Of a DNA stretch of 64,000 bases, positions 12,254 to 38,440 are shown piece by piece (position 1 is the stretch's first letter; each line of letters starts with the position of its first letter). The DNA is from Candidatus Nitrospira neomarina. GTDB taxonomy: Bacteria; Nitrospirota; Nitrospiria; Nitrospirales; UBA8639. Under the pieces are notes generated by a model. It saw only the letters and a list, made by a program, of their open reading frames with translations. It had not been told where the DNA came from and ran no database searches. The stretch is taken from the NCBI RefSeq assembly GCF_032051675.1, contig NZ_CP116968.1, positions 1,984,001 through 2,048,000 of the forward strand. Reading direction: 5' to 3'. The position numbers and the translations under genes are program-made.

Positions 12254-13768
12254 CTAGGATACTGAGTGACTCATCAATTTCTCATCTTGAGCTGACGCTT
12301 CGACCGCTTCATCAACCGTCCACTGTTCCACCCGATTTCGCCCATTCTCTTTGGCCACATACAAGGCTTTGTCGGCTTGGGCCACCAATTCCAAATAATC
12401 AGAAGCTCCTAAGGCGGCGGCTGACACACCAAAACTCATCGTAATTTTCTGCCCGGACGTCGTGCGAATAGCCGCACTGGCGGAAACTTCAATGGTTTCC
12501 CGTAACCGTTCGGCCACCAACATACCCTCCACGCACGTCTGCCCAGGCAGGAGAATGCAAAATTCCTCTCCCCCATACCGGCCAATAATATCCAACGGAC
12601 GCAAAGCGGTTGATAACAATTTTGCCACGAGTTCAATCACTTGATCCCCCACCGCATGGCCAAACCGATCGTTATACGATTTGAAATGGTCGATATCCGC
12701 CATAATACAGACCATATCGCTCCCATCATGTTGAGCCTTCTCCCACTGTTCTTCAAACGCCTCAAATAACGCTCGCCGGTTGCAACATCCCGTCAAGGGA
12801 TCTCGGTGAGCCAGTTTCTCTAATTCGGTTTTTGATAACTCCAACTCCCGAATCGTACCTTCCAATACCGTCACATCATTGAAAGATACCAAAATGCCTC
12901 GGACCTGCTTGCGTTGACCCAAGATGGGAGTGCAATTGACTCGAAACTTCTTCACCGTTTTCCCCATCCTCTCCCAAACCAGGGGGACATCTAATTTCAA
13001 GCATTCTCCCTGTCGCGCCGTTTTCCACGGGTAAATGTTCAGCGGGTCACCCATGTCGGATGACGTCCATTCAAAACTATCCAATGTTTTCCCGATCAGG
13101 TCGTGAGGAGCCACATCAACAATGAGGCTAAAGGCGCGATTGGCGAGCACAATACGGTCCTCACCATCCAGGAACACCACACCCTCTGCCAACACATCAA
13201 ACGCGGCTTGCACCCGCATGGGCACCACCGAACTGGGATCGAGTTGCCGCAACGTTCGTTTCATATACAGAAAATAGCCCACAAACCCGTAGACCATGAC
13301 CAGCGCAAGAAATCGCACCCAGGCATTATTAAGCACATGGGTCCAAAATCCAGTATCCAGAGAAGGAAACCGGAGTTGTAAGGTTCCCCAATGGAGGTCC
13401 CCGTTGAAAATGGGAATCTGAATGTGTTCGGGCGTAGAATGGTCCCCTGATGGTTGCGTCCAGAGAGCCTGATGGGGCCCGGCCATGGCCATAATCTCAC
13501 CACTTTCCAAGACCAATGCCACTGATTGGATATCCCCATTCCGTTCGACCAGGAGATCCAAAGCCTGCTGGAGGTCCTGATTGTCCCCCCTCTGCGCCAG
13601 GATGGAATACTGGACAGCCATCGCTTCGCTAAACTTTTGCCGGTAGGTAAAGATTTGAGCAGCCTGGTCCGGAATGAGACCCACCATCAGGTCACTGATC
13701 AAGAGAATACTCAGGGTCAGGGATACCAGCCCCAGACTCATCCAGAAGATGGGTGTCAGTCGTTTCAT
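12254..13768 (-). CDS. Membrane diguanylate cyclase coupled to giant protein A
   Basis: A 504-residue inner-membrane sensor that should make c-di-GMP. Layout: a TM helix (about 10-30), a periplasmic sensing region (about 31-148), a second TM (about 150-168), a PAS domain (about 183-305), then a GGDEF domain. The active-site motif is GGEEF at 399-403. RPLD at 390-393 sits five residues before it and is the standard inhibitory I-site, so feedback control by product is expected. The start codon overlaps the stop codon of the giant gene A in an ATGA (13765-13768), so the two are translationally coupled. The first 310 residues align collinearly with the hybrid kinase at 53985, including LxQLDPS..VP.RV, AEG...LD, LANRAF, NC.PILG and G.LVSF.DVT. 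The output domain is what differs. Confidence 0.93.
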   Translation of the reverse strand: MKRLTPIFWMSLGLVSLTLSILLISDLMVGLIPDQAAQIFTYRQKFSEAMAVQYSILAQRGDNQDLQQALDLLVERNGDIQSVALVLESGEIMAMAGPHQALWTQPSGDHSTPEHIQIPIFNGDLHWGTLQLRFPSLDTGFWTHVLNNAWVRFLALVMVYGFVGYFLYMKRTLRQLDPSSVVPMRVQAAFDVLAEGVVFLDGEDRIVLANRAFSLIVDVAPHDLIGKTLDSFEWTSSDMGDPLNIYPWKTARQGECLKLDVPLVWERMGKTVKKFRVNCTPILGQRKQVRGILVSFNDVTVLEGTIRELELSKTELEKLAHRDPLTGCCNRRALFEAFEEQWEKAQHDGSDMVCIMADIDHFKSYNDRFGHAVGDQVIELVAKLLSTALRPLDIIGRYGGEEFCILLPGQTCVEGMLVAERLRETIEVSASAAIRTTSGQKITMSFGVSAAALGASDYLELVAQADKALYVAKENGRNRVEQWTVDEAVEASAQDEKLMSHSVS

Positions 13769-16700
13769 GAGGATCCGGAGGAAAACGTGGAGGAAGGGCG
13801 AACCGATTGATCACTATTCTTGTCCAACATCCGATCCAATCCGTGATGCTCCCGGGTCTCCTTCTCTGCGGCTTCCTTCATTTTCTTCGTCAAACTTTCC
13901 CGGCTCTTTTGATCCATATCCAGAATGGCAATAGGGTCAAAGTTCCGCCAGGCCGGGAGCGTCGCCAATACGCTCGCCAGGAGCGTGCCACTTCTCACCA
14001 GCCACGCCAGAAGGACTCCCGATACGCCCAGCCCCGTGTATTCCATCATCTTGATGAAAAAGGACCGTTCCTCAATGGTTTGTTGGGTGGTCTCTTTCAA
14101 ATCATCGGCAAAAGAGTTCAGCTGCTGAAGGAATTCCTGGCTCAGCTCGATGCTGGAAAGCAGCACTGGGGCCGGAGTATAGGCACGAATTTGTTCTGAG
14201 GTGGTTCCAAAAGTGCCTGGACGCAGAAATGGGGCGACCTCCAAGACCCTATTCCAGTCAGGAACTGACTGTGGATCAGGATGTCGGGTAAGATCCCGTC
14301 CCGCTGGAGGTTGACCACCGAATGAATCCGGAAACCCGATCGGGGGTGTTCCTGGAGGCGAAGTATTGGTATCAAGCGGCGCCTCCGGAGTTGGACGAGG
14401 GCTTGGCGCAGGCGTGGGCGTGGGATCTGGTTGCGGCGAGGGCGTTTGGGGCATGCCTTCCTGGATATCTGTGACGGTCACCTGAATCATTTGAGAATCC
14501 ACACCCCCGTTACCATCGCTCACCTGTACCACCACCTCATAAATATTATTCGCATCGGCATCGGTGGGTGTCTCAAAGTCCGGGGGCACGGTGAAGGTCA
14601 ACACCCCGGTGGTCGGATCAATGGTGAATAACGCCGCATCCGCCCCGCCTAATATCGTATAGGTCAACGGATTTGCCGGCATATCTACATCCGTGGCCGT
14701 CACCGTCGTAACATACGTTTGATTCTCTGCCGTATTCATTACCGCCGTGGGGCCGCCCCCATTACTCGTGATTATCGGCACATCATTGTCATCGGTCACC
14801 GTCACGGAGATGGCTTGCGTATCCACACCGCCATTACCATCACTCACCTGGACGGTCACCTCATAGACATTATTGCCATCAGCATCTGCTGGTGATTCAA
14901 AGTCGTGAGCCGTATTAAAGGCCAAGACCCCCGTACCGCTGCTAATGGAAAACAGACTCGCATCCGCTCCGCCAATGATAGTGAAGGTCAGCGTATCTGC
15001 CGGTAAATCAACATCAGTGGCCGTAACCGTGGTGACACTCGTTTGATTCTCCACCGCATTCACTGCAGCCGTGGGACCGCCACCATTACTGGTGATGACC
15101 GGTGCATCGTTCACCGCTGTCACCGTGATACTGGCCGTATCCGTCGCGGTACTAAACGCGGTGGTCCCCCCGTTCGTCGAGGCATCCACCTTCGTCCCTT
15201 CCGTCCCGCTCGTCTGATCCCACGCCCGGTAGGTCACCGTCGCACTGTCCGCATTCTGCCCATCCGGCACAAACCGCAAACTGTCGGTCGCCCTCAGCAG
15301 GAGGGCCGAGGCATCACTGACCGCCCCCACCGCCGTCCACCCGCCGCCAATGTCATACTCCCACGTACCATTGCCACTGGTGAGGCCCGTGATGGCGATG
15401 CCCTCCACCGCCCCCGTGTCCACATCGGCAATGGAGCTCCCCACGATGGCCGAGACCAGGTCGCCGCTATTATTGGTCTGATCTTCGGTGATGGTGGTGA
15501 GCGTGGGACTGGCCGGCGTCAGCACTGGGGCATCATTGACCGCCGTCACCGTAATCGTCGCCGTATCCGTCGCCGTCGAGAAGGCCGTCGTGCCCCCATT
15601 GCTCGAGACATCCACCTTCGTGCCTTCTGTCCCGCTCGTCTGATCCCACGCCCGGTACGTCACCGTCGCACTGTCCGCATTCAAGCCATCCGGCACAAAG
15701 CGCAGACTGTCGGTCGCCCGGATCAGTAATGCCGAGGCATCACTGACCGCCCCCACCGCCGTCCAGCCGCTCCCGATGTCATACTCCCACGTCCCGTTGC
15801 CACTCGTGAGACCCGTGATCGCGATACCCTCCACCGCCCCCGTGTCCACATCGGCAATCGAACTGCCCACAATGGCCGACACCAGGTCGCCGCTATTATT
15901 GGTCTGATCTTCCGTGATGGTCGTGAGACTCGGCGCCGCCGGCGTCACCACCGGGGCATCGTTGACCGCCGTCACCGTGATGCTCGCCGTATCCGTCGCC
16001 GTCGAGAAGGCCGTCGTCCCCCCGTTCGTACTCGCATCTACCTTCGTGCCTTCCGTCCCGCTGGTCTGATCCCACGCCCGGTAGGTCACCGTCGCACTGT
16101 CCGCATTCTGCCCGTCCGGCACAAACCGGAGACTATCCGTGCTACGGAGCAAGAGCGCCGAGGCATCACTGACCGCCCCCACCGCCGTCCACCCGCCCCC
16201 GATGTCGTACTCCCACGTGCCGTTGCCACTCGTGAGACCCGTGATCGCGATGCCCTCCACCGCCCCCGTGTCCACATCGGCAATCGAACTCCCCACGATC
16301 GCTGACACCAGATGGCCGCTGTTGCTGGTCTCATCTTCCGTGATGGTCGTGAGAGTCGGCGCCGCCGGTGTCACCACCGGCGCATCGTTGACCGCCGTCA
16401 CCGTGATGCTGGCCGTATCCGTCGCGGTGCTAAAGGCTGTCGTCCCCCCGTTCGTACTCGCATCCACCTTCGTCCCTTCCGTCCCGCTGGTCTGATCCCA
16501 CGCCCGGTAGGTCACCGTCGCACTGTCCGCATTCAAGCCGTCCGGCACAAACCGCAGACTATCCGTGCTACGGAGCAAGAGCGCCGAGGCATCACTGACC
16601 GCCCCCACCGCCGTCCAGCCGCCCCCGATGTCGTACTCCCACGTGCCGTTGCCACTCGTCAGGCCCGTGATCGCGATGCCCTCCACCGCCCCCGTGTCCA

Positions 16701-19425
16701 CATCCGTGATACTCGCCCCCACGATCGCCGACACCAGGTCACCACTGTTATTGGTCTGATCTTCGGTGATGGTCGTGAGGGTCGGCGCCGCCGGTGTCAG
16801 CACCGGGGCATCGTTGACCGCCGTCACCGTGATACTGGCCGTATCCGTCGCCGTCGAGAAGGCCGTCGTCCCGCCATTGGTCGACGCATCCACCTTTGTT
16901 CCTTCTGTCCCGCTCGTCTGATCCCACGCCCGGTAGGTCACCGTCGCACTGTCCGCATTCTGCCCGTCCGGCACAAACCGCAGACTATCGGTGCTGCGCA
17001 AGAGCAGGGCCGAGGCATCACTGACCGCGCCCACCGCCGTCCAGCCGCTCCCGATGTCATACTGCCATGTGCCGTTGCCACTCGTGAGGCCCGTGATGGC
17101 GATGCCCTCGACCGCCCCCGTGTCCACATCCGTGATACTCGCCCCCACGATCGCTGACACCAGATGGCCGCTGTTGCTGGTCTCATCTTCCGTGATGGTC
17201 GTGAGGGTCGGCGCCGCCGGGGTCACCACCGGCGCATCGTTCACCGCTGTCACCGTGATGCTGGCCGTATCCGTCGCCGTCGAGAAGGCCGTCGTGCCCC
17301 CGTTCGTACTCGCATCCACCTTCGTGCCTTCCGTCCCGCTCGTCTGATCCCAGGCCCGGTAGGTCACCGTCGCACTGTCCGCATTCAACCCATCCGGCAC
17401 AAACCGTAAGCTATCGGTACTACGCAGTAAGAGGGCCGAGGCATCACTGACCGCCCCCACCGCCGTCCAGCCGCCCCCGATGTCGTACTCCCACGTCCCG
17501 TTGCCGCTCGTGAGGCCCGTGATGGCGATGCCTTCCACCGCCCCACTGTCCACATCGGCAATCGAGCTGCCCACGATGGCCGACACCAGGTCGCCGCTGT
17601 TGCTCGTGTCATCTTCGGTGATGGTGGTGAGCGTGGGACTCGCCGGCGTCAACACCGGCGCGTCATTGACCGCCGTCACCGTAATCGTGGCCGTATCCGT
17701 CGCGGTCGAGAAGGCCGTCGTGCCCCCGTTGGTCGAGGCATCCACCTTCGTCCCTTCCGTCCCGCTCGTCTGATCCCACGCCCGGTAGGTCACCGTCGCA
17801 CTGTCCGCATTCTGCCCATCCGGGACAAACCGCAGACTATCCGTGCTACGGAGCAAGAGCGCCGAGGCATCACTGACCGCCCCCACCGCCGTCCACCCAC
17901 CCCCGATGTCGTACTCCCACGTGCCGTTGCCACTCGTGAGGGCGGTGATGGCGATGCCCTCCACCGCCCCTGTGTCCACATCCGTGATACTCGCCCCCAC
18001 GATCGCTGACACCAGGTCGCCACTATTGCTCGTGTCATCCTCCGTGATGGTCGTCAGCGTGGGACTGGCCGGCGTCAGCACCGGCGCATCGTTCACCGCT
18101 GTCACCGTGATACTGGCCGTATCCGTCGCGGTACTAAACGCGGTCGTCCCCCCGTTCGTCGAGGCATCCACCTTCGTCCCTTCCGTCCCGCTCGTCTGAT
18201 CCCACGCCCGGTACGTCACGGTCGCACTGTCAGCATTCTGCCCGTCCGGCACAAAGCGCAAACTGTCGGTCGCCCGGAGCAGTAATGCCGAGGCATCACT
18301 GACCGCCCCCACCGCCGTCCAGCCGCTCCCGATGTCATACTCCCACGTCCCGTTGCCACTCGTGAGGCCGGTAATCGCGATGCCCTCCACCGCCCCCGTG
18401 TCCACATCCGTGATACTCGCCCCCACGATCGCTGACACCAGATGGCCGCTGTTGCTCGTGTCATCTTCCGTGATCGTCGTGAAGGTCGGCGCCGCCGGCG
18501 TCACCACCGGCGCATCGTTGACGGCCGTCACCGTGATGCTGGCCGTATCCGTCGCGGTGCTAAAGGCCGTCGTCCCGCCATTGGTCGACGCATCCACCTT
18601 TGTGCCTTCTGTCCCGCTCGTCTGATCCCACGCCCGGTAGGTCACCGTCGCACTGTCGGCATTCTGCCCATCCGGCACAAACCGGAGACTATCGGTGCTG
18701 CGCAAGAGCAAGGCCGTCACATCACTGACCGCCCCCACCGCCGTCCAGCCGCTCCCGATGTCATACTCCCACGTGCCGTTGCCACTCGTGAGGGCGGTGA
18801 TCGCGATGCCCTCGAGCGCCCCCGTGTCCACATCGGCAATCGAACTGCCCACAATGGCCGACACCAGGTCGCCGCTATTATTGGTCTGATCTTCGGTGAT
18901 CGTCGTCAGCGTGGGACTCGCCGGCGTCAGCACCGGCGCATCGTTGACCGCCGTCACCGTGATACTGGCCGTATCCGTCGCGGTGCTAAAGGCCGTCGTC
19001 CCGCCATTGGTCGACGCATCCACCTTTGTGCCTTCTGTCCCGCTCGTCTGATCCCACGCCCGGTAGGTCACCGTCGCACTGTCGGCATTCTGCCCGTCCG
19101 GGACAAACCGGAGACTATCGGTGCTGCGCAAGAGCAAGGCCGTCACATCACTGACCGCCCCCACCGCCGTCCAGCCGCTCCCGATGTCATACTCCCACGT
19201 GCCGTTGCCACTCGTCAGGCCCGTGATCGCGATGCCCTCGAGCGCCCCCGTGTCCACATCGGCAATCGAACTGCCCACGATGGCCGACACCAGGTCGCCG
19301 CTGTTGCTCGTGTCATCTTCGGTGATGGTGGTGAGCGTGGGACTCGCCGGCGTCAACACCGGCGCGTCATTGACCGCCGTCACCGTGATCGTCGCCGTAT
19401 CCGTCGCCGTCGAGAAGGCCGTCGT
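13765..19425 (-). CDS. Giant surface protein A, C-terminal part (after frameshift)
   Basis: The C-terminal half of a giant repetitive surface protein. It contains ten full copies of a 142-residue beta-sandwich repeat (VNDAPVLTPASPTL..., ending FSTATDTASITVTA), then two cadherin-like repeats (SNGGGPTAAVN...VTVQVSDGNGG), a Pro-rich spacer (PQTPSPQPDPTPTPAPSP) and a helical C-terminal region. That region ends in a TM segment with the motif GVLLAWLVRSGTLLASVLATLPAWRNFDPIAILD (about 13915-14035). The frame is open to 19596, but residues upstream of about 19425 are out-of-frame nonsense. True coding continues in another frame into the next entry. Its stop overlaps the diguanylate cyclase start. Product is probably not made as one chain unless the frameshift is an assembly error. 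Confidence 0.85.
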   Translation of the reverse strand, partial: TTAFSTATDTATITVTAVNDAPVLTPASPTLTTITEDDTSNSGDLVSAIVGSSIADVDTGALEGIAITGLTSGNGTWEYDIGSGWTAVGAVSDVTALLLRSTDSLRFVPDGQNADSATVTYRAWDQTSGTEGTKVDASTNGGTTAFSTATDTASITVTAVNDAPVLTPASPTLTTITEDQTNNSGDLVSAIVGSSIADVDTGALEGIAITALTSGNGTWEYDIGSGWTAVGAVSDVTALLLRSTDSLRFVPDGQNADSATVTYRAWDQTSGTEGTKVDASTNGGTTAFSTATDTASITVTAVNDAPVVTPAAPTFTTITEDDTSNSGHLVSAIVGASITDVDTGAVEGIAITGLTSGNGTWEYDIGSGWTAVGAVSDASALLLRATDSLRFVPDGQNADSATVTYRAWDQTSGTEGTKVDASTNGGTTAFSTATDTASITVTAVNDAPVLTPASPTLTTITEDDTSNSGDLVSAIVGASITDVDTGAVEGIAITALTSGNGTWEYDIGGGWTAVGAVSDASALLLRSTDSLRFVPDGQNADSATVTYRAWDQTSGTEGTKVDASTNGGTTAFSTATDTATITVTAVNDAPVLTPASPTLTTITEDDTSNSGDLVSAIVGSSIADVDSGAVEGIAITGLTSGNGTWEYDIGGGWTAVGAVSDASALLLRSTDSLRFVPDGLNADSATVTYRAWDQTSGTEGTKVDASTNGGTTAFSTATDTASITVTAVNDAPVVTPAAPTLTTITEDETSNSGHLVSAIVGASITDVDTGAVEGIAITGLTSGNGTWQYDIGSGWTAVGAVSDASALLLRSTDSLRFVPDGQNADSATVTYRAWDQTSGTEGTKVDASTNGGTTAFSTATDTASITVTAVNDAPVLTPAAPTLTTITEDQTNNSGDLVSAIVGASITDVDTGAVEGIAITGLTSGNGTWEYDIGGGWTAVGAVSDASALLLRSTDSLRFVPDGLNADSATVTYRAWDQTSGTEGTKVDASTNGGTTAFSTATDTASITVTAVNDAPVVTPAAPTLTTITEDETSNSGHLVSAIVGSSIADVDTGAVEGIAITGLTSGNGTWEYDIGGGWTAVGAVSDASALLLRSTDSLRFVPDGQNADSATVTYRAWDQTSGTEGTKVDASTNGGTTAFSTATDTASITVTAVNDAPVVTPAAPSLTTITEDQTNNSGDLVSAIVGSSIADVDTGAVEGIAITGLTSGNGTWEYDIGSGWTAVGAVSDASALLIRATDSLRFVPDGLNADSATVTYRAWDQTSGTEGTKVDVSSNGGTTAFSTATDTATITVTAVNDAPVLTPASPTLTTITEDQTNNSGDLVSAIVGSSIADVDTGAVEGIAITGLTSGNGTWEYDIGGGWTAVGAVSDASALLLRATDSLRFVPDGQNADSATVTYRAWDQTSGTEGTKVDASTNGGTTAFSTATDTASITVTAVNDAPVITSNGGGPTAAVNAVENQTSVTTVTATDVDLPADTLTFTIIGGADASLFSISSGTGVLAFNTAHDFESPADADGNNVYEVTVQVSDGNGGVDTQAISVTVTDDNDVPIITSNGGGPTAVMNTAENQTYVTTVTATDVDMPANPLTYTILGGADAALFTIDPTTGVLTFTVPPDFETPTDADANNIYEVVVQVSDGNGGVDSQMIQVTVTDIQEGMPQTPSPQPDPTPTPAPSPRPTPEAPLDTNTSPPGTPPIGFPDSFGGQPPAGRDLTRHPDPQSVPDWNRVLEVAPFLRPGTFGTTSEQIRAYTPAPVLLSSIELSQEFLQQLNSFADDLKETTQQTIEERSFFIKMMEYTGLGVSGVLLAWLVRSGTLLASVLATLPAWRNFDPIAILDMDQKSRESLTKKMKEAAEKETREHHGLDRMLDKNSDQSVRPSSTFSSGSS
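15115..19374 (-). repeat. Ten tandem 426-nt (142-aa) repeats in giant protein A
   Basis: Ten head-to-tail units, each exactly 426 bases, encode near-identical Ig/cadherin-like domains. Unit boundaries taken at VNDAP fit 10 x 426 exactly. Variation is mostly block-wise (TEDDTSNSGD, TEDQTNNSGD, TEDETSNSGH; ASITDVD versus SSIADVD), as expected from gene conversion and unequal crossing-over. The array also creates long chance ORFs on the plus strand, which are not genes. Confidence 0.95.
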
Positions 19426-22400
19426 CATCACTGACCGCCCCCACCGCCGTCCACCCACCCCCGATGTCGTACTCCCACGTGCCGTTGCCACTCGTGAGGG
19501 CGGTGATGGCGATGCCCTCCACCGCCCCTGTGTCCACATCCGTGATACTCGCGCCGACGATCGCCGACACCAAATGGCCGCTATTGCTCGTGTCATCCTC
19601 CGTGATGGTCGTGAGCGTGGGACTCGACGGTGTCAGCACCGGGGCATCGTTTTCCGCAACCGCAGTCGTGTTAAGCGAAAATTCCGAGGTTGAACCATAG
19701 TTACCGCCTCCCAAATCTTCTGTGGCGGTGGCCGTCACAAACTCACCTGTTGTTACCGAAGCGTTCAAAGTGAGATTAAAACTCCCATTGCCGCTGCCAT
19801 CCGTCGTGACGCTCGTAAAACCAAGATAGGTTTGGCCTTCTCCGTGACCGGAAGGATCTTCGCCGGTCGCAGTGGTATTCTTGAAAAACTCAACCCGGAA
19901 CGAGGAACTGGCCGTACTATTGAAGGTCCCGTCTATAGTGACCTGGGTCGGCGAATCCACATCGGCGGTAGCCAGCACAGGAAAATTCTGCAGGTCGTTG
20001 GCACCCGCATCGGCATCACCCGCGTCGTTGACAGTAACTCCGGTACTTCCTAACTCAATGCCCAAACCGGTATTTGAATGAATCTGGTTACCAAGAATAC
20101 TATTGTTCGTCCCTCCGGTGACATTCACACCATTATTGGTGTTGTGTGCGATGAGATTGCCTTCGCCGGCATTCACCCCACCCACCTTGTTACTCGAGGT
20201 GGCGATCTGAATACCATCGCCGACATTTCCCAAGGCAACAGTTCCCGCGGCATCGGTGCCGATTTTGTTACCCAGCACGCGATTTCCCGTCCCGATGATC
20301 CACACACCCCATTGATTATTGCCGGAAATGAGGTTCCCCTCCCCCGTATTTGAGCCTCCAATCGTGTTGTTACTCCCGTCTACAATAATTCCTCCCCAGG
20401 GCCCCACACCGACCTGTCCATTGCCGACAGCCGCAGTGCCTGAAATATTGGTGCCAATATAGTTTCCTTGGATGACTGTCCCGGAAATGCCAGGATCAAC
20501 ATCCACACCCTCGTCATTATTCCCGGAGATCACGTTGCGGTCTGCAGCGGCGGCACTGCCAATGGTATTATTATTCGCGGTGATCGTAATACCATCTATG
20601 GCGTTCCCCTGGTCAACCGCCCCGGTATTATCCAAACCGATCCAGTTGCCCACCACAACATTGTTGGCACCACTGAGTTGAATACCGCTGAGGCTGAAGC
20701 GATTGATAATCAAACCCTTGATCGTACTGCCGGCGCTCCCCGAGCCAAGAGTCAGTCCGTTTGCACTACCCGCACCAGTGCCATTCAGTTCGATTTGCAA
20801 GACACCATCATTTCCAGTCGCAAGCGTATTGGCCGATGAACCAGCCTGCGTGTACCCGTCAATCACCACGACATCGGTAAGGGTGGTTAAAGCTGAAGAC
20901 GGACTGATCGTATGCGGGCCGGCCCCCGCAATGTTGAAATTGATTTGATCCGCCGCCCCATCATTACCCGTGTTGTTGGTGGCAATAATGGCTTCTCGAA
21001 GAGAAATAAACCCATCAAACCCCTTATCCGCCAGCAAGGCTGCGATCGAGGAGGTATCCCCATCGGCCGTATCGGAGGTCGTATCGACTGTCAAAGTGCC
21101 GACGTTATCGACCACGGTAACGGAGATGGCTTGCGTGTCGAATCCACCGTTCCCGTCACTGACCTGCACGGTCACTTCATACACATTGTCCGTGTCGGCA
21201 TCCCCGGGCGCCTCGAAGTCCGGAGCGGCATTAAAGACAAGGACGCCAGTGCCACTCCCGATAGAAAACAGAGCCATGTCCGCTCCACCAATGATGCTAT
21301 ATTGCAGCGTGTCTGCCGGCACATCTACATCTGTGGCCGTCACTGTCGTCACAGCAGTAATATTTTCACTCCGGGTAAGGGCGGCAGTGGGCCCCCCTCC
21401 GTTAGTGATGATAGCCGGGGCATCGTTGACCGCCGTCACCGTGATCGTCGCCGTATCCGTCGCCGTCGAGAAGGCCGTCGTCCCGCCGTTGGTCGACGCG
21501 TCCACCTTCGTCCCTTCCGTCCCGCTCGTCTGATCCCACGCCCGATAGGTGACCGTCGCACTGTCCGCATTCAACCCATCCGGCACAAACCGTAAGCTAT
21601 CGGTACTACGGAGCAAGAGCGCCGTCGCATCACTGACCGCCCCCACCGCCGTCCAGCCGCTTCCGATGTCATACTCCCACGTGCCGTTGCCACTGGTGAG
21701 GCCCGTGATGGCGATGCCTTCCACCGCCCCACTGTCCACATCGGCAATCGAGCTGCCCACGATGGCCGACACCAGGTCGCCGCTGTTGCTCGTGTCATCT
21801 TCGGTGATGGTGGTGAGCGTGGGACTCGCCGGCGTCAACACCGGCGCGTCATTGACCGCCGTCACCGTGATGCTGGCCGTATCCGTCGCGGTCGAGAAGG
21901 CCGTCGTGCCCCCGTTCGTACTCGCATCCACCTTCGTCCCTTCCGTCCCGCTCGTCTGATCCCAGGCCCGGTAGGTCACCGTCGCACTGTCCGCATTCTG
22001 CCCGTCCGGCACAAACCGTAAGCTATCGGTGCTGCGCAGCAGCAACGCTGAGACATCACTGACCGCGCCCACCGCTGTCCACCCGCCCCCGATGTCATAT
22101 TCCCACGTCCCGTTGCCGCTCGTGAGGCCCGTAATCGCGATCCCCTCCACCGCCCCCGAATCCACATCGGTGATCGAAGCGCCGACGATGGTCGACACCA
22201 GGTCGCCGCTGTTCGTCGTGTCATCTTCCGTGATGGTGGTGAGCGTGGGGCTGGCCGGCGTCAACACCGGCGCATCGTTTTGGCTGCTGATCGTCACCGT
22301 CGTGTCGTAGTTGGCACTGGTGCCCCCGTCCCCATCGGTCAGCACATAGCGCACCGTGCGGCTGCCCAAGGTCGGGTTGTCCGTGTCCGTGTTCTCATAG

Positions 22401-25400
22401 GTGATGTTCTGCACCAACGCACTCACCGCCGCCGAATCGGCATTGGCATCGAGCGTGATGACCAGGTCGGTCCCGCCACTGCCCCCCGTAAAGGTGCCGA
22501 TTTGCGTGCCGCCATAACTGACCGCACTGCCCGCCACGGTGATATTGGTGGGGCCCGCCCCCTGATCGCGGATGGCCAAGACATCCTCGGCCGCATCACT
22601 GCCCGCTTGGAAGGAGACCGTCAACGTCCCCGTGTCAAAGTCCGCCGAGTCCACATCACTCACCGCCGCATTGCCACTCTGGTCGATGACTTGCGCGCCG
22701 TCGCCTTCGGTGTAGGCCAACGTGTCGCCCCCCAGGTTGGCAATGACCGGGATGTCATTGACCGCGGTGGCTGTCGCGTTAAGCGCGAATTCGGAGGTTG
22801 AACCATAGTTGCCGCCGCCAAGATCTCTCGTGGCAGTAGCGGTCACAAACTCACCGGCGGTAACCGAAGCTGTAAGGGTGGTGTTGAACGTCCCGTTTCC
22901 ACTTCCGTCTGTCGTGACGCTCGTAAAGCCGAGATAGGTTTGTCCTTCTCCGTGACTGGAAGGATCTTGCCCGGTAGCAATGGTGTTTTTATAAAATTCG
23001 ATCCGAAAGGTGCTACTAGCTGTACTATTGAATGTTCCGTCAATGGTGACCTGCGTGGGTGAGTCCACATCAGCCGTCGTGAGCACCGGAAAATTCTGTA
23101 GGTCGTTAGCGCCGGCATCTCCGTCCCCTGCGTCATTGGCGGTTACGCCGAAACCGTCTTCTGTGCCTCCCTCGAGATTAATTCCCCGGAGAGTGTTTCC
23201 ATAAATCCGGTTCCCCAGGATCGCATTTCCAGTAGTAGGAGCATCGCGTACCTCAATCCCATGCAGGTCGTTTCCGAAAATCAAGTTCCCTTCGTTCGCA
23301 CCTGTCCCACCAATAAGATTGCCAGTAGCCCCGTCTCCCGTATCTTCATTGAGATCGATGCCATCACGGCTGTTCCCAAGGTCGAGTGTGCCCGTATAGT
23401 CCGTCCCGATATAGTTTCCTTGAATGATGTTGTTGTCGCCGTTGTCGATTTCGATCCCATCGCTGTCATTGCCTGAGATCACATTTTGTGCGCCGGCGGC
23501 GGAACCTCCAATGGTATTTCCGTCGGCATTGTCGATCTCAATCCCTTCCTGCGTATTCCCACGATCAAGGGTTCCTCCGGCGTCGGTCCCGATATAGTTT
23601 CCCCGGATTTGATTTCCTGTGGCACCGGCACCGGCAAGCGCAATTCCGCTGAATATGTTTCCGGATATTACATTGCGATCAGCGGCAACAAGACCACCGA
23701 TGGTATTATTGGCTGATTCAATTCGAATACCGCCTTGAATACCCGTGCCGGACGTATTATTTCCCCTCGTCGTCGTGCCGTCGGCGTCGAGGCCAATGTA
23801 ATTTCCCGCAATCAGGTTATTCCCCCCTTGGAGGAGGATGCCGTTCTGAACAAAATTTTGAATGACCAGCCCACGGAGAGTCGAACCGCCCCCAGTCCCA
23901 CTGATCACTAATCCGTTTGACCCGGCACCTGCGCTGGTGCCGTCTATCTCAATGATGGGTGTGGTCCCAAAATCCGGCTCGGTGGTGCCATCGATGATGA
24001 CGGCCTCCGTGATTGATGGCAGAGCCGAGCTGACGATAATCGTATGGGCACCCCCCGTCAGCGCAGCGGGTATATTGAACACAATAGTATCGGTCCCGCC
24101 TGTCGCATTGGTTGCCGCAACGGCCTCCCTTAATGAGATGCGGCCGTCGGCGCCACGCGCGTTACCCAGATTAGTGATGCTCGTCGTCGTGCCGTCGCTG
24201 ACATCGCTCGTCGTATCGACGACCACTATGCCGGTAGAGGTTGCGGTGGCGTTGGCCGCGAACTCCGAGGTATCGCCGTAGTTGCCGCCGCCGAGATCAC
24301 GCGTGGCCGTTGCCGTGACGCGATCACCCGCGTTTATCCAGACGCTATTCAGGGTTACGTTGAAGCTCGCATTACCGGATCCATCAGTCGTGACGGTCGT
24401 GAAGCCCAGGTAGCGCTCACCTTCACCATTAGAGGCGTCCGCAACGGAAGGGCGATTGGCAAAAAATTCGATACGATAGGCGAGACTGGCATTGGTGTTG
24501 AGTGTACCGACAATCGTCGTGCCGCTCGTATTAGAGTTGGCAGAAGTGAGCACGGGAAAATTTTGCAAGTTGTTGGCGCCGGTGTCCGGATCACCCGCAT
24601 CGTTAGCGGTGACTCCGCTCGTACCCAGGTCAATGCCCAAGTTACTGTTTGAATGAATTCGATTCCCAAGTACCGCATTACTACTTCCGTTAACGATATT
24701 CACCCCATCCAATGCGTTGAAGGCGATGAGGTTGCCGGCTCCTGCTGCCGTCCCGCCGATCAGGTTGCCGGTCGCACTGCCCTGGACTTCCACTCCATCG
24801 TCTGAGCGATTCCCTCGGTTCAACGTGCCGCCCGCATCCGTCCCGATGTAGTTTCCCTGCACAATGTTATTATTCGTGTTGATTTCGATCCCTTCGAAAT
24901 TTTTTGAAATGACATTTCTGGCAGCCGCTGTGGTGCCGCCAATCGTATTGCCGGACCCCGTTATAATGGCGATCCCGACATCGGTATTGCCCCCTCCGGT
25001 TGATCCGTCAGGATCAAGACCGATGTAATTCCCTTGGATGAGATGTCCGGTGACTCCTGAACCCACGATGGTGATTCCTTCGTCTCCACTGTTGGTGATG
25101 ACGTTACGGTCATTAGCCCCGGTACCGCCGATGATGGCGTTGGAACCAGCAATTTCAATCCCATCATCTCCATTTCCTACGCCGGTCGAACCGGTCCCGG
25201 TTGTACCGATCCAATTCCCAACCACGGTGATATTGTCCGCACCCGACTGAATAAGGATCCCGTCTCGAGAAAATCCCGTGATCATCAATCCTCGGACCGT
25301 ACTGCCGTCGCTGGTCCCGGTAAAAGAGAGGCCATCTCTGCTCGGCCCCCCCAGTGAAGACCCGTCTATTCGAATGACCGGCGTACCCGCGAAATCGGGT

Positions 25401-26449
25401 TCGCTCCAGCCATCAATGAGCACCGGGCCAGTAATGGGATCCAGCTCACTCCCAGTGAGAGTGATGACGTGTGGGCCCGCACCGGCAATGCTGAAATTAA
25501 TGGTGTCACTCCCGGCATTGGCATTGGCATCGAGAATGGCTTGTCTGAACGACCCTGCCCCGGAATCATTGGTATTGGTCACGGTATACGTGGCCAGCAC
25601 CCCTTCCCATACGTCTTGCGTGGCCTGGCCGATCACAATGGACGACTCAATGAAGCCGGTGGAAATTTCCAGTTGCCAGTTGGCATATTCGCTCACGTGC
25701 CCGGTGCGGTCCGTGCTGGCGGCGATATCCGCTCTTGTGAGATCCGCTAAGGCCTGGATAGCCGAGAGGCCGCCTGCTCCACGCCCGAAGTTACAGCCGT
25801 AGATCAACAGATCGGCGTCGGCAGACAGACTCTGTCCAATCTGACTGAGCAGCGCCGCATAGTGATTGCTGATCGAATCGTTCGTGAGAAAGGCCGTACC
25901 CAAATGCATCTCGGCCTCGGTGCCTTCCCCGATGAGATGAATGGCGTCGATATCGCTCCGATCCTTGAGGGCTTCCGCAATCTGTTCGATCCCGTCCCGT
26001 CTCGCATCCAGAAGAATAACTTCCGCGGCCGGATCGATCCCGTCCATAAGCGTCTGATAATTTTCAACACGCGTATCGATGAAGACGATCTCTTTGCGGT
26101 CCGAAGACGTGGAGAGGGAAAGACCGGAGGACCAGAGGGCGTCATTGTCGGAAGTATCGTGAGTGTTGGAATCCGTACTTGTCTCACCATTGACTTCGGG
26201 AACGCCCGGTTGATCTTGCGTGGTGGTGTCTTGAACGACTTCCGCTCCCGTGGCGAGGGCGGCTCCATCGAATAGGATCCGTGGCTCCAGGGCGATACAG
26301 GTTCCGGTCAATCTGGCTGTATCCGGTTCTTGGGGTGGGGTGGGCTTCCGCTTCTTCTTCGCGCCAGGTTTCACCACCTTAGGGTCCTTCCCGGCCTGGA
26401 GCGTCGCGGGCTTGCAGTGCATGGATTTCATATGACGATCTTTAATCAT
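19367..26449 (-). CDS. Giant DUF4347 surface protein A, N-terminal part
   Basis: A 2360-residue N-terminal part of giant protein A. Layout: a basic N-terminus, LEPRILFDGAA at about 54-64, and DUF4347 (about 119-285, with EIVFIDTRVENYQTLMDGI, HLIGEGTEAEMHLGT and LLIYGCNFGRG). Three right-handed beta-helix regions follow, each opened by an (L/F)RQAI or SLREA motif and filled with NxIGG, GNxIGTD and GNYIG coils. Between them are a VCBS-like domain and two 142-residue repeats. The last about 20 residues before the stop are out of frame: the true reading continues in the previous entry after a 146-nt deletion at about 19425. No Sec signal peptide is evident. It is predicted to be secreted and to act in adhesion or matrix, by analogy with DUF4347 proteins. 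B is its closest paralogue. Confidence 0.88.
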   Translation of the reverse strand: MIKDRHMKSMHCKPATLQAGKDPKVVKPGAKKKRKPTPPQEPDTARLTGTCIALEPRILFDGAALATGAEVVQDTTTQDQPGVPEVNGETSTDSNTHDTSDNDALWSSGLSLSTSSDRKEIVFIDTRVENYQTLMDGIDPAAEVILLDARRDGIEQIAEALKDRSDIDAIHLIGEGTEAEMHLGTAFLTNDSISNHYAALLSQIGQSLSADADLLIYGCNFGRGAGGLSAIQALADLTRADIAASTDRTGHVSEYANWQLEISTGFIESSIVIGQATQDVWEGVLATYTVTNTNDSGAGSFRQAILDANANAGSDTINFSIAGAGPHVITLTGSELDPITGPVLIDGWSEPDFAGTPVIRIDGSSLGGPSRDGLSFTGTSDGSTVRGLMITGFSRDGILIQSGADNITVVGNWIGTTGTGSTGVGNGDDGIEIAGSNAIIGGTGANDRNVITNSGDEGITIVGSGVTGHLIQGNYIGLDPDGSTGGGNTDVGIAIITGSGNTIGGTTAAARNVISKNFEGIEINTNNNIVQGNYIGTDAGGTLNRGNRSDDGVEVQGSATGNLIGGTAAGAGNLIAFNALDGVNIVNGSSNAVLGNRIHSNSNLGIDLGTSGVTANDAGDPDTGANNLQNFPVLTSANSNTSGTTIVGTLNTNASLAYRIEFFANRPSVADASNGEGERYLGFTTVTTDGSGNASFNVTLNSVWINAGDRVTATATRDLGGGNYGDTSEFAANATATSTGIVVVDTTSDVSDGTTTSITNLGNARGADGRISLREAVAATNATGGTDTIVFNIPAALTGGAHTIIVSSALPSITEAVIIDGTTEPDFGTTPIIEIDGTSAGAGSNGLVISGTGGGSTLRGLVIQNFVQNGILLQGGNNLIAGNYIGLDADGTTTRGNNTSGTGIQGGIRIESANNTIGGLVAADRNVISGNIFSGIALAGAGATGNQIRGNYIGTDAGGTLDRGNTQEGIEIDNADGNTIGGSAAGAQNVISGNDSDGIEIDNGDNNIIQGNYIGTDYTGTLDLGNSRDGIDLNEDTGDGATGNLIGGTGANEGNLIFGNDLHGIEVRDAPTTGNAILGNRIYGNTLRGINLEGGTEDGFGVTANDAGDGDAGANDLQNFPVLTTADVDSPTQVTIDGTFNSTASSTFRIEFYKNTIATGQDPSSHGEGQTYLGFTSVTTDGSGNGTFNTTLTASVTAGEFVTATATRDLGGGNYGSTSEFALNATATAVNDIPVIANLGGDTLAYTEGDGAQVIDQSGNAAVSDVDSADFDTGTLTVSFQAGSDAAEDVLAIRDQGAGPTNITVAGSAVSYGGTQIGTFTGGSGGTDLVITLDANADSAAVSALVQNITYENTDTDNPTLGSRTVRYVLTDGDGGTSANYDTTVTISSQNDAPVLTPASPTLTTITEDDTTNSGDLVSTIVGASITDVDSGAVEGIAITGLTSGNGTWEYDIGGGWTAVGAVSDVSALLLRSTDSLRFVPDGQNADSATVTYRAWDQTSGTEGTKVDASTNGGTTAFSTATDTASITVTAVNDAPVLTPASPTLTTITEDDTSNSGDLVSAIVGSSIADVDSGAVEGIAITGLTSGNGTWEYDIGSGWTAVGAVSDATALLLRSTDSLRFVPDGLNADSATVTYRAWDQTSGTEGTKVDASTNGGTTAFSTATDTATITVTAVNDAPAIITNGGGPTAALTRSENITAVTTVTATDVDVPADTLQYSIIGGADMALFSIGSGTGVLVFNAAPDFEAPGDADTDNVYEVTVQVSDGNGGFDTQAISVTVVDNVGTLTVDTTSDTADGDTSSIAALLADKGFDGFISLREAIIATNNTGNDGAADQINFNIAGAGPHTISPSSALTTLTDVVVIDGYTQAGSSANTLATGNDGVLQIELNGTGAGSANGLTLGSGSAGSTIKGLIINRFSLSGIQLSGANNVVVGNWIGLDNTGAVDQGNAIDGITITANNNTIGSAAAADRNVISGNNDEGVDVDPGISGTVIQGNYIGTNISGTAAVGNGQVGVGPWGGIIVDGSNNTIGGSNTGEGNLISGNNQWGVWIIGTGNRVLGNKIGTDAAGTVALGNVGDGIQIATSSNKVGGVNAGEGNLIAHNTNNGVNVTGGTNNSILGNQIHSNTGLGIELGSTGVTVNDAGDADAGANDLQNFPVLATADVDSPTQVTIDGTFNSTASSSFRVEFFKNTTATGEDPSGHGEGQTYLGFTSVTTDGSGNGSFNLTLNASVTTGEFVTATATEDLGGGNYGSTSEFSLNTTAVAENDAPVLTPSSPTLTTITEDDTSNSGHLVSAIVGASITDVDTGAVEGIAITALTSGNGTWEYDIGGGWTAVGAVSDDDGLLDGDGYGDDHGDGGQ
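19375..19654 (-). repeat. Truncated repeat unit causing the frameshift in giant protein A
   Basis: This unit is 280 bases instead of 426. The bases that encode the second half of the domain, from after GAVSD to before TTAFSTATD, are missing. The junction is near 19425, and the loss of 146 bases (not a multiple of three) breaks the frame. Short GCCGTC sequence occurs at both ends of the missing stretch in neighbouring units. Confidence 0.85.
21431..22282 (-). repeat. Two further 142-aa repeat units in giant protein A
   Basis: Two exact 426-base units of the same family as the main array. They sit between the second and third beta-helix regions of protein A, separated from the main array by the third beta-helix. 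Confidence 0.9.
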
Positions 26450-26941: not shown

Positions 26942-27862
26942 ATGAGGATGGAGATTCAAAAAACCGTGCAAGCGTTTCAGCGATTGAAAGGACAGGAAAC
27001 TATACTCCAAGCGGCCGGCGTCGATACGGCCGATACAAGCGAGCCACCATCACCCTGCCATGTGATCGGCTTTGCCGGTGCCAAGGGAGGAGTCGGAACG
27101 ACCACGGTAGCACTCAATGTCGCCATGACCCTTGTTCATGGAGGCCATCGCGTCATCTATGTCGAGCTGAGCCCCCATTTGGGAACGGCCACGCGGCTCC
27201 TTCACATGCCACACCAATCGCCTTTGCGCAATGCAGCGACCACGTTAACAGACATGAATGAAGCGGTGGTGAGCCAACTGCTCATGCAACATTCGACAGG
27301 ACTGCAAGTCCTCTGTGTACCCATTTGGGATCAAGAAGTGGGGGCTCAAGTCTCCACGGAATTCCTGACCGTATTATTCCGGGAACTCAAAGGACTCGCA
27401 GATTATCTGATACTTGATTTTCCGTTGGAACCCTCTTTTCCATCCATATGTTTTCTCGGTCAATGTCAGATCCTGGATCTCGTGATGGAGAGCGATGCCA
27501 TTGGTATGAATTTAGCGAAAAACCAATTAGCGTTTATCCGAAGCCACTGCGAAACTCCCGTGTTTGTCACCCTCGTGAATCGCTCGGGTATTCCATTAGC
27601 TGACGGGGTCCAGAGTATCCAGGAAGAAATCGGCTATGAAATCCCGGTCGTCATCCCCACAGCCTCGGAGTTATGTTATACCGCCGGCATTAAAAAATTG
27701 CCGATCGTCTGCTTCAACCCCGAAAGCGTCCCTGCCATGCAGTTTGTCAAACTGAGCGAACACCTGCTCGGGTACTTTTCCGAAGACGGTCCGGAGCCAA
27801 AACGAGACCGACGAGGCCGGGACCGCCGGAAAGGCAACCGTCGAGACCGTGGTGTCTGGTAA
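26942..27862 (+). CDS. ParA/MinD-like ATPase
   Basis: A 306-residue P-loop ATPase of the ParA/MinD/CpaE/BcsQ superfamily. The deviant Walker A GAKGGVGTTT is at about 46-55, with the signature Lys early in the loop. Strand 'VIYVELSP' and the Walker B-like 'LADYLILDFPLE' follow. The N-terminal about 40 residues are a helical extension, and the C-terminus is a very Arg-rich tail (RDRRGRDRRKGNRRDR), possibly for binding nucleic acid or acidic lipid. There is no ParB gene or parS-like site nearby. The gene lies on the opposite strand between giant genes A and B. ATPases of this group often position envelope machines such as pili or cellulose synthase at a cell site, so placing the export system is a reasonable guess. 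A second in-frame ATG is at 26948. Confidence 0.85.
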   Translation: MRMEIQKTVQAFQRLKGQETILQAAGVDTADTSEPPSPCHVIGFAGAKGGVGTTTVALNVAMTLVHGGHRVIYVELSPHLGTATRLLHMPHQSPLRNAATTLTDMNEAVVSQLLMQHSTGLQVLCVPIWDQEVGAQVSTEFLTVLFRELKGLADYLILDFPLEPSFPSICFLGQCQILDLVMESDAIGMNLAKNQLAFIRSHCETPVFVTLVNRSGIPLADGVQSIQEEIGYEIPVVIPTASELCYTAGIKKLPIVCFNPESVPAMQFVKLSEHLLGYFSEDGPEPKRDRRGRDRRKGNRRDRGVW

Positions 27863-27957: not shown

Positions 27958-28027
27958 CTCAAGAGAATACGTGGGGTAGGAAAACCAACCCCAGACTCAT
28001 CCAACAGGTGGGCGTCAGTCGTTTCTT
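27958..28027 (-). pseudogene. Fossil start of a diguanylate cyclase gene after giant gene B
   Basis: Read on the minus strand, this stretch encodes KKRLTPTCWMSLGLV, matching the start MKRLTPIFWMSLGLV of the diguanylate cyclase that follows giant gene A. DNA identity is high over about 70 bases and then stops, so only about 22 codons remain. The start codon, which should be the ATG of an ATGA overlap, reads AAG. The same single change also removes the matching stop codon of giant gene B, which therefore runs a few codons further to 28015. Confidence 0.75.
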
Positions 28028-31000
28028 GAAGGTCGTAAGCGGGGAGAAATGGAAGGCGTAGAAGATGTACCAACCTCCGGATCCAACATCTGATCTAAGC
28101 CTTGATACTCTCCGGCCTCCTTTTGTGAGGCTTCTTTCATCCTTTTTGTCCAACTCTCCCGACCCTGTTTATCCATATCCAATATCGCAATGGGGTCAAA
28201 ATTGCGCCAAGCCGGGAGGGAAGCCAACACGCTCGCCAACAGCGTGCCACTTCTCACCAGCCAGGCTAAAAGGACTCCCGATACGCCGAGCCCGGTGTAT
28301 TCCATCATGGTGATGAAAAAGGACCGCTCATCAATGGCTTGCTGTGTGGTCTCTTGTAAATCTTGGGAAAACGCGTTTAACTGTTGAAGAAATTCACGAC
28401 CCAGTTCGATGTGTGAAATCAGCACCGGGGCCGGAGCATACGAACGAATTTGTTCTGTGGTGGTCCCGGAAACCGCTGGGCGCAGGAAGGGGGCGACATC
28501 CAAAACCCTGCTCCAATCCCGAACCGGCTGAGGGCCGGGCCTACGTGAAAGATCCCGTCCCAGTGGGGGTTGACCATCGAAGAAACCCGGAAACTCGGAA
28601 GAAGGCGTCCGCGTGGTCGAATAATCGATATCAGAAGGCGGTTCCGAAATTGGGTGGGGCCCAGGGTCAGGGGTGGGGATGGGATATGGCTGAGGTAGAG
28701 GCTGTAGGGGAAGGGGAAGAACTCCTTCCAGCGTATCTGTGACGGTGATACTCATCATTTGTGTATCCGCTCCCCCATTGCCGTCACTCACCTGCACGGT
28801 GACCTCATAGATATTATTCGCGTCAGCATCGGCGGGCGTCTCAAAGTCGGGGGCGCCCGTGAACGTCAACACCCCGCTGGTCGGATTCAGGCTGAATAGC
28901 CCCGCATCCGCGCCGCCGATGATGCTATAGGTCAGGGTGTCCGCCGGAACATCCACATCGGTGGCCCTCACGGTGGTCACACTCGTTTGATTCTCCGCTA
29001 CATTCACCGCTGCTGTGGGGCCGCCACCATTACTGGTGATGACTGGCGCATCATTGACCCCCGTCACCGTGACCGTCGCCGTATCCGTCGCCGTCGAGTA
29101 GGCCGTCGTGCCGCCGTTGGTCGAGACATCCACCTTCGTGCCTTCCGTCCCGCTCGTCTGATCCCACGCCCGGTAGGTCACCGTCGCACTGTCGGCATTC
29201 AAGCCATTCGGCACAAAGCGCACGCTGTCGGTGGCCCGCAACAACAACGCCGACCCATTACTGACCGCTCCCACGGGCGTCCACCCGCTACCCGTGTTGT
29301 ACTCCCACGTGCCGGTGCCACTGTTCAGCCCCGTGATGGCAATACCTTCCACCGCCCCACTGTCCACATCTGCGATGGAGGCCCCCACAATATTCGAGAT
29401 GAGGTCGCCGCTATTACCCGTGTCATCTTCCGCAATGGTGGTGAGACTTGGCGCAGCCGGGGCGAGGACCGGCGCGTCATTGACGCCGTTAATCGTGACG
29501 TAGACCGTCCCTGTATCTGTGCCTCCGTTGCCGTCGTCAATTGTATAGGCAAATTGGTCAAACGTTTGCTGCCCACTATCCAAATTGTCGAACTGTCCAT
29601 TGGGATCGTAGTTGAAACTGCCATCGGCGTTGAGGGTGACCAACGCTCCGGACGCAAGGGAAATGGGATTTCCGATATTTGCGGCATTACCATTGACCTC
29701 ACTTACCACAAATGGATCACTATCAACATCGATATCATTGGTAAGCACCCCAGCCATCGGGATATTAAGAGGTGAGTCACCGTTTGTGGCATAGCCAACC
29801 CATGTCGGCTCCTGAAAGGGCGTGCCTCCACCCAACGCTCCGTTGTTACTTGAGGGTGAAATATCTGTCGCAACGGTTCCTACACCTTCTGTCAACCGCC
29901 AGTTACCCACGAGCCCCGTTTCAGCACCGGTGAGCCACTGATTATAGTTGGTGGCAATTTCCACCCCGGTCCTCGCGACATTCCAAATTCGCACCTCACT
30001 AATCGATCCCTCGAAATACTGCCCTGTTGGATTATTCGAACGACCACCGATACGAAGATCGTCGAGTGTGGGGTGAGCATCGCCAATGGACCCGGAGCCG
30101 TTATAGGTATCGACAGGTGATCCATTGACATAGGTAATCACAGTGCCGCTGCTGTAGGTAATGGCGACATGCGTCCATTCATTGAGAGGCACCACATAAC
30201 CTGTGTCATACCAACTCCATCCAGGGTCCGTGTTGGCAAGGGCCCAACGAATGCTTCCATCAGGAAATATTCCTACTTCATATTCCCCTTCCTTATTAAT
30301 AATGAGCGCACTACTGCTGGTCGGGAAACTTGTTGGCCGGAACCACGCCTCCATCGTCATGGTATTGCTCATTTCCAAGCTGACGTCATTACCCAGCTGA
30401 ACATAATCATCCACACCATCGAATGTGAGGCCGGAACGATCATCTGCAGCGATCGGCGCATGGTTAACCACGACATTTGCGGAGAATTCCGAGGTGTTGT
30501 TCGATGCATCGTTAGCCGTTGCCGTCAAACGGTCGCCGGCTGCGAGCAGGCTGGTCGAGAAGCTGAAACTGAACTGCCGCGCCGAGGCATCGACGCTGCC
30601 CGGCGTCGATCCGCTCACAAGGCCGGAGTCCAGATAGGTCTCACCTTCGCCGTAGCCGCTCACGTTCGGCGCCGATTTGAAGAACTCGACAGTCGCGCCT
30701 GCCCCTGCCTCCCCAGTGACCGTGACCGTCGTACCCGAGACCTGCACGCTGTAGATCACGGGAAAGTTCATCAGATTGTTGCCGCCGGTGTCGGCGTCGC
30801 CGGCATCATTGGGGGTCACGAAAGGCGCGGTGCCCAAGTCGCCCGGGTCGCCCGCCGGCAGGAGATCGATACCGATCCCCCCTCCGGGGCCCGTGCCATT
30901 GCCGTAGATCGAATTCTGCGTGATCAGATTGCCCGTTGACGAGCCGGACCGAATCATCACGCCCGCGCCAGCATTACCGCTGCTGATGTTCTTACTGATC

Positions 31001-37534: not shown

Positions 37535-37582
37535 CCTCGTTTCCCTCCTTTGGATCAACAGAGAGGTCGATCCGGGAAGGAG

Positions 37583-38440
37583 TTAATGTTTGGCAGTCTG
37601 TTTACTCGTGGACGTCGGTGAGGCTGCAGGCTTCGTGCTTGGCGAAAATGTTGATTGAGCGGGAAACGTGCCTTCCGGAAATTTCGCGCTTCCACTCATA
37701 CCGGCTAAGACACCTGTGGGATGTTTGTGAAATCGGCCAAAAACCCGAATGGTTTGACTCACAGGATCAACACGAGGACCAATTTCCACCACTTCCGCAG
37801 AATAGTCCTTTTGAGTCTCATCGATACTAAATGAAAACGGACTGTTCTTGGCGATCCACTGCAGCGAAGACGACGGGAGAATCAATTCAATATCCAGATC
37901 CTGATTACTGACAATACTCACCAGATCATCGTACGGATTCACGCTTTCATAAGGGTTGACCAACGTCTTGACCACATGTCCCGCAAAAGGGGCTGGAATC
38001 CGGCAACCTTGAACAATCACCTGGGCTCTGGTGAGAACCGCCTGAGCTTTTTTTAATTCGGCCAGCGAAATGTCCACTTCCAACCGGCCAATCCCGTGAA
38101 GAGCGGCCAGCTCCTCGTTATTGATGACGGTCTTTTGCCTTGCATCCAAATCCGCTTGGGCGGCCGATAATTCCGCCCGGTATTTGGCACATTCAAATTC
38201 AACGAGAATGTCTCCCTTTTTAAAAGCGTCCCCGTCTCGAAACGGCATCCGCTTCACTAATGCCTGGATTTCACTGGCAAGCACCGCTTCAACCACAGGT
38301 TTCACGATGCCCCGAATCGTCTGAAGATCCGATGAGGGCACACTGCTGCGTCCTCCGCCTTTTGCCAGACTGAGGCCTGAAGTCAGCATGATCAGACTCA
38401 GGACTAAACACAGAATCGTGATTGGGTGTCGATGTATCAT
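37583..38440 (-). CDS. Periplasmic HlyD/AcrA-type membrane fusion protein
   Basis: A 285-residue periplasmic adaptor with a Sec signal peptide (about 1-26, ending GLSLA). It contains the two lipoyl halves (VKPVVEAVLASEI... FKKGDILVEFECAKYRAEL and RIPAPFAGHVVKTLVNPYESVNPYDDLVSI) around an alpha-hairpin, then a beta-barrel (SFSIDETQKDYSAEVVEIGPRVDPVSQTIRVFGRF). Such adaptors join an inner-membrane unit to a TolC duct. It is shorter than typical RND adaptors (350-400). Its start codon overlaps the tolC stop in ATGA. With the two other HlyD domains in the operon, three adaptor-like proteins serve one TolC. Confidence 0.9.
   Translation of the reverse strand: MIHRHPITILCLVLSLIMLTSGLSLAKGGGRSSVPSSDLQTIRGIVKPVVEAVLASEIQALVKRMPFRDGDAFKKGDILVEFECAKYRAELSAAQADLDARQKTVINNEELAALHGIGRLEVDISLAELKKAQAVLTRAQVIVQGCRIPAPFAGHVVKTLVNPYESVNPYDDLVSIVSNQDLDIELILPSSSLQWIAKNSPFSFSIDETQKDYSAEVVEIGPRVDPVSQTIRVFGRFHKHPTGVLAGMSGSAKFPEGTFPAQSTFSPSTKPAASPTSTSKQTAKH

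Follow-up and report, generated by a model that had tools for sequence, protein, structure and literature searches.

A giant-protein C-terminal domain and a membrane sensor module form a conserved gene pair linked to c-di-GMP enzymes in Nitrospirota and Proteobacteria

Results

Genes and features of the locus

The window, i.e. the whole 64,000-nucleotide stretch of the Candidatus Nitrospira neomarina genome analysed here (NZ_CP116968.1, 1,984,001 to 2,048,000), carries two gene runs in a mirrored layout (Table 1). Giants B and A and a diguanylate cyclase follow one another on the minus strand, and giants C and D, a hybrid histidine kinase and a REC-GGDEF-EAL protein on the plus strand, each sensor coming after the second giant of its tandem. 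The genes of the M50-HlyD fusion, the GAF-HlyD protein, the HlyD-type adaptor and the TolC-like protein sit between the two runs.

Table 1. Coordinates of the features in the window
Feature	Positions	Strand	Remarks
Diguanylate cyclase sensor, TM - periplasmic sCache/PAS-like - TM - PAS - GGDEF	12254-13768	-	GGEEF and RxxD kept
Diguanylate cyclase input module (residues 1-191)	13196-13768	-	
Diguanylate cyclase GGDEF domain (residues 320-479)	12332-12811	-	Pfam
Giant A	13765-26449	-	Split in this assembly into ORFs 13765-19596 and 19367-26449, which overlap
CTD of giant A, long helix with membrane segment	13822-14133	-	GLGVSGVLLAWLVRSGTLLASVLATLPAW
Giant B, first of the B/A run	28015-32736	-	CTD (28081-28392) shares the type of A
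M50 intramembrane protease fused to HlyD-type adaptor	33959-36088	-	HExxH and NLNPLLRFDG kept
GAF-HlyD-type adaptor protein	36089-37558	-	
HlyD-type periplasmic adaptor	37583-38440	-	
TolC-like outer membrane efflux protein	38437-40233	-	
Giant C, first of the C/D run	41017-47040	+	CTD at 46675-46941
Giant D, partner of the hybrid kinase	47560-53988	+	
CTD of giant D	53620-53886	+	
Hybrid histidine kinase sensor, input module then HisKA-HATPase-REC-Hpt	53985-56525	+	
Hybrid kinase input module (residues 1-190)	53985-54554	+	
REC-GGDEF-EAL response regulator, probably acted on by the hybrid kinase	56755-58587	+	Pfam; neighbourhood of HisKA-type sensors

The genome encodes four DUF4347 proteins (PF14252 above the cut-off, 173-183 bits) and two copies of the sensor input module, all of them inside the window. 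The window giants resemble the known DUF4347/LEPR-XLL giants with tandem cadherin-like repeats in having DUF4347, the LEPR motif and Cadherin_4 and Big_9 repeats. Giant A combines a LEPR motif, DUF4347, a beta-helix, cadherin-like repeats and a C-terminal membrane segment. Its frame is broken at 19367-19596 (minus strand) within a near-identical repeat; since the homologue in the relative G019 is a single ORF of 4832 aa, the break may be due to faulty assembly or to a recent deletion. On the plus strand, opposite to giants A and B, a ParA/MipZ-like ATPase ORF (26942-27862) occupies the gap between them, and an EAL-HDOD protein (59098-60330, plus strand) is encoded 3' of the REC-GGDEF-EAL gene.

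The M50-HlyD protein shares the HExxH and NPxxRFDG motifs with the M50 (site-2) proteases, and HExxH with NPxxxxDG is likewise found in nearly all homologues that are complete in this region. Unlike those proteases it is fused to an HlyD-type adaptor and associated with giants. Of the ABC exporter, adaptor and TolC-like channel that make up a type I secretion system, Pfam found the adaptors and a TolC-like outer membrane protein but no ABC ATPase in the four genes at 33959-40233 (minus strand). The cluster may be a so far undescribed exporter of giant proteins.

The two sensors share an input module

An earlier note on this DNA, made from the sequence alone, had described both sensor genes as beginning within a giant's stop codon, and their products as sharing about 310 N-terminal residues before diverging. 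These descriptions hold. Both reading frames are open and located as given in the note, and each overlaps its giant by ATGA. The cyclase starts inside the stop codon of giant A (minus strand ...TCATGA, 13765-13768) and the kinase inside that of giant D (plus strand GGGATGA, 53985-53988). The common N-terminus aligns over 319 residues with 35% identity, 57% positives and 18 gaps (E=1e-57), a likeness that far exceeds chance, and every element listed in the note is found in the sequences, i.e. TM, periplasmic part, TM, QLDPS..VP, PAS, NC.PILG and G.LVSF.DVT. Pfam assigns PAS to both proteins, then GGDEF to the cyclase and HisKA, HATPase, REC and Hpt to the kinase. The former is a GGDEF diguanylate cyclase by its PF00990 match (149 bits) with GGEEF and RxxD present, and the latter a hybrid histidine kinase by its four Pfam domains and the motifs SHEIRTP, MDMQMPEMDG and AHWLKG.

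The input module is a defined family for which Pfam has no dedicated model. The periplasmic part of both window sensors has no Pfam match, and in the wider family marginal matches to sCache_4/CHASE8 were obtained for a few members only. The structure model of the module consists of a TM helix, a long helix, an sCache/PAS-like domain and a second TM helix (pLDDT 80). The closest solved structures are the extracellular domain of WalK (Z 10.5), CitA (Z 9.9) and the LapD-type CdgS9 (Z 9.4), with DctB also among them. The periplasmic part is predicted to have an sCache/PAS-like extracytoplasmic fold, which fits outside-in sensing and does not name the signal.

The giants end in a conserved domain

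Upstream of each sensor, the giant closes with a conserved C-terminal domain (CTD) that contains a membrane segment and has the consensus LD..., then GlSxGYvaWLlRsGxLlxSxLxSlPAW..DPLPVL. In type, the CTD of B resembles that of A and the CTD of C that of D. In the AlphaFold model one long helix spans the membrane segment and breaks off at PAW..DP, where a second helix follows; with a mean pLDDT of 68 the model is to be taken as a sketch only. A fold search of the PDB with this low-confidence model gave no match, a result that carries no weight. Lysine and arginine are weakly more frequent on the C-terminal side of the membrane segment, and the flanking charges do not settle the orientation. With its single predicted membrane segment the CTD would tie the giant to the inner membrane, at least temporarily. 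For both the giant end and the sensor, membrane topology and fold are predictions from models.

The CTD precedes the sensor in relatives and across phyla

The 98 relatives contain 47 modules, and for 40 of these a CTD lies on the same strand at a distance of 43-111 nt upstream. The earlier note had also considered that the module might occur mostly without giants; these counts contradict it, and several of the exceptions keep a decayed giant tail. Seen from the giants, the 63 CTDs in the same genomes are followed by a sensor (40), another giant (9) or neither (14), counts made with a profile that was seeded from sensor-adjacent genes, so that it favours paired CTDs and could miss a divergent CTD elsewhere. 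All 36 CTD giants of the organism's own family are accounted for, 29 being followed by a sensor, seven by a giant of the same run and none standing alone. The lone ones all belong to the sister family that includes Nitrospira, where 14 of 27 CTD giants have no adjacent sensor or giant.

We scanned 84,980 species genomes and obtained 79 organism-named loci, from Nitrospirota and Gamma- and Betaproteobacteria. The CTD immediately precedes the sensor in most of the loci with upstream room, and the gene order is mostly the same from Nitrospira to Marinobacter, Aquabacterium and Thiobacillus. Over all loci there are 95 CTD-sensor pairs, the two genes overlapping or touching in 38.

About a dozen Nitrospira sensors have no giant upstream, several of them lying beside a decayed one. 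At L082, L097, L105 and L112 (Nitrospira), remnants resembling a giant tail lie directly 5' of the kept sensor, and the tail-like broken pieces upstream of the exceptional Nitrospira sensors include GIDRVLTSS and FRGLDRVLKS. By the look of these remnants, the giant at the four loci was lost while the sensor was retained. In G028 a 43-residue sensor relic lies beside an M50-HlyD cluster (L161:6047-6175), a second sensor in decay. The lone giants of the sister family and the giant-less Nitrospira sensors suggest that the sensor may serve without an adjacent giant.

The sensor co-occurs with the CTD rather than with DUF4347

We drew 369 gammaproteobacterial genomes evenly, three of which held loci already in our set. 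The sensor module was found in 23 of them and the CTD in 23, both together in 22 (p=4e-33), whereas DUF4347 occurs in 48 and the M50-HlyD fusion in 57, 36 of these with DUF4347. Within the 48 DUF4347 genomes, 20 have CTD and sensor, one the CTD only, one the sensor only and 26 neither (p=3e-11; both p-values are descriptive because genomes are non-independent samples). The CTD counts in this sample, too, come from the profile seeded with sensor-adjacent genes, which may have passed over divergent CTDs. The CTD thus predicts the sensor almost perfectly among DUF4347 genomes, which indicates that the sensor belongs to the CTD and not to DUF4347 or M50-HlyD generally. DUF4347 is ruled out as a marker of the pairing, 27 of its 48 genomes being sensorless; together with the lone giants of the sister family, these genomes place the link at the CTD.

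The suggestion of the earlier note that each sensor is dedicated to its giant thus stands for giants with the CTD and not as a tie to LEPR/DUF4347 giants generally. Its counter-case, that giants mostly lack such a neighbour, does not apply to the CTD giants of the own family and is often true of DUF4347 giants at large; the sensor accompanies only the subset with the CTD membrane segment.

Both output types lead to c-di-GMP enzymes

By motif search we sorted the sensor outputs into three classes: GGDEF, HisKA hybrid kinase and, in Nitrospira, a kinase carrying an LHN box. A REC-GGDEF or REC-GGDEF-EAL gene comes after every one of the 30 HisKA sensors whose downstream DNA is readable, while only one of 33 GGDEF sensors has any GGDEF/EAL gene nearby downstream, indicating that the two branches converge on c-di-GMP. 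The outputs of the two window sensors, described as different in the earlier note, do differ in their domains, yet less than it appears, as both routes reach c-di-GMP enzymes. Behind the LHN sensors come genes for REC proteins, in many cases overlapping, and next a REC-GGDEF gene in two of the inspected loci; this branch possibly leads to c-di-GMP in part. At L075, L084 and L112 the LHN kinase sensor is followed by REC and then by REC-GGDEF or REC-kinase genes, i.e. a long relay.

Discussion

A sensor that may read the anchored end of the giant

The sensor is paired and co-occurs with the CTD, and the c-di-GMP gene neighbourhood is conserved. We consider it somewhat probable that these genes form a conserved cassette in which the sensor reads the membrane-anchored end of the giant and sets the level of c-di-GMP. 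The giant, probably exported, would stay tied to the inner membrane for a time by its CTD helix. The sensor encoded by the next gene, with its two membrane helices, periplasmic sCache/PAS-like domain and cytoplasmic PAS, would read whether the tied end is waiting, under export, pulled or released. In the B-A branch the built-in GGDEF domain would turn the signal directly into c-di-GMP, and in the C-D branch a phosphorelay would run from the kinase to the REC-GGDEF-EAL enzyme encoded next. The M50-HlyD, HlyD and TolC-like genes between the runs probably export the giants. We infer that giant and sensor are in physical contact, and likewise what the signal is, how the giant is exported and that it serves in adhesion. 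The lone CTD giants of the sister family and the giant-less Nitrospira sensors tell against this reading. Since the M50-HlyD protein keeps its protease motifs, it may cut the CTD helix in export. We speculate further, and hold it unlikely as a whole, that M50-HlyD cuts or passes the tether of a giant standing beside its sensor, with c-di-GMP reporting the tethered, pulled or released state, which would give the cell a means to count or feel its giants.

The main rival is a plain environmental sensor, which would bind a small molecule and switch synthesis or export of the giant through c-di-GMP while never sensing the giant; we regard it as possible, though rather doubtful. Small-molecule binding is frequent in sCache/PAS-like domains, hence the signal could be a metabolite. 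The closest folds are the extracytoplasmic sCache/PAS domains of CitA, DctB and WalK, the Nitrospira sensors persist beside decayed giants, and in the Lap system the Cache domain of GcbC senses citrate (PMC11395469). WalK, DctB and GcbC-type sensors also have the same architecture, i.e. TM - sCache/PAS-like - TM - PAS - output. However, the module family of the window differs from them in being tied to one giant CTD in the preceding gene. It tracks this short domain and not DUF4347 or M50-HlyD, a tie that a mere regulator of the giant would not need, and in the module tree it stays with the CTD although the outputs changed several times.

The Lap/Bpf system, in which LapD and LapG govern a large adhesin via c-di-GMP (PMC11395469, PMC3032553), is the closest known system. 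Lap (LapA, LapD, LapG and GcbC of Pseudomonas fluorescens) and Bpf (Shewanella) likewise have a very large surface protein whose control is linked to c-di-GMP and to a membrane protein carrying a PAS/Cache-like domain in the periplasm, as well as TolC-like and HlyD-type export parts (PMC11395469, PMC3032553). Inside-out control of this kind would make the periplasmic domain an output, which restrains or liberates a protease of the giant in the manner of LapD and LapG. It would agree with the second Foldseek match, 4u64, which is the output domain in the periplasm of a LapD orthologue, and with a locus that combines a large protein with c-di-GMP enzymes. We nevertheless think it very unlikely here. 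LapG (Peptidase_C93) has no match in the whole genome, while a Caulobacter control genome gave one, and membership in the Lap system is ruled out on this ground. LapD has a degenerate GGDEF-EAL, whereas the window sensors have an intact GGDEF or a kinase: the cyclase keeps its GGEEF motif, Pfam finds no EAL domain in either sensor, and the kinase versions lack any LapD-like part that would bind c-di-GMP. The window also differs from Lap in the predicted membrane anchor at the C-terminus of the giant, and in an export cluster with an M50-HlyD fusion and no ABC ATPase gene seen.

Plain hitch-hiking, in which giant and sensor share nothing but transcription within an operon that is mobile or slowly decaying, we find hardly more credible, and if anything a little less so. 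Whole cassettes appear to cross phyla, and adjacency by itself proves no function. Yet module and CTD co-occur in 22 of 23 genomes over an evenly drawn class, and the order and the spacing of tens of bases are kept in two phyla despite great sequence divergence.

History of the cassettes

In the module tree the window cyclase falls within a Nitrospirota sensor clade and the window kinase within a mainly proteobacterial HisKA clade, and the AU test rejects a single clade of all Nitrospirota modules under the model used (p-AU 1.5e-6). The idea of the earlier note that a duplication in this lineage was followed by an exchange of output in one sensor, for which the 35% identity of the module and the mirrored layout would speak, is ruled out by this tree and test to the point that we give it next to no credence, and several proteobacterial genomes likewise carry one HisKA pair and one GGDEF pair each. 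The CTDs agree with the module tree: for the kinase pair, the closest cross-phylum CTD and the closest cross-phylum module both belong to locus L144. Probably, then, the C/D-kinase cassette was transferred as one unit between Nitrospirota and Proteobacteria, in one direction or the other. The distances of CTDs and modules are correlated (r=0.83, 94 pairs), a correlation also expected from joint inheritance as a cassette.

Significance

To our knowledge, c-di-GMP control of large adhesins is known chiefly from LapD/LapG, and we found no description of the giant-sensor pairing in the open-access literature searched. The cassettes would represent a second, LapG-free arrangement that occurs in two phyla, nitrite oxidisers included. 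One input module is genetically bound to a short membrane domain of a giant while its output varies. The CTD, the input module and the REC-GGDEF-EAL protein are defined parts with which outside-in sensing of giant export or attachment may be tested.
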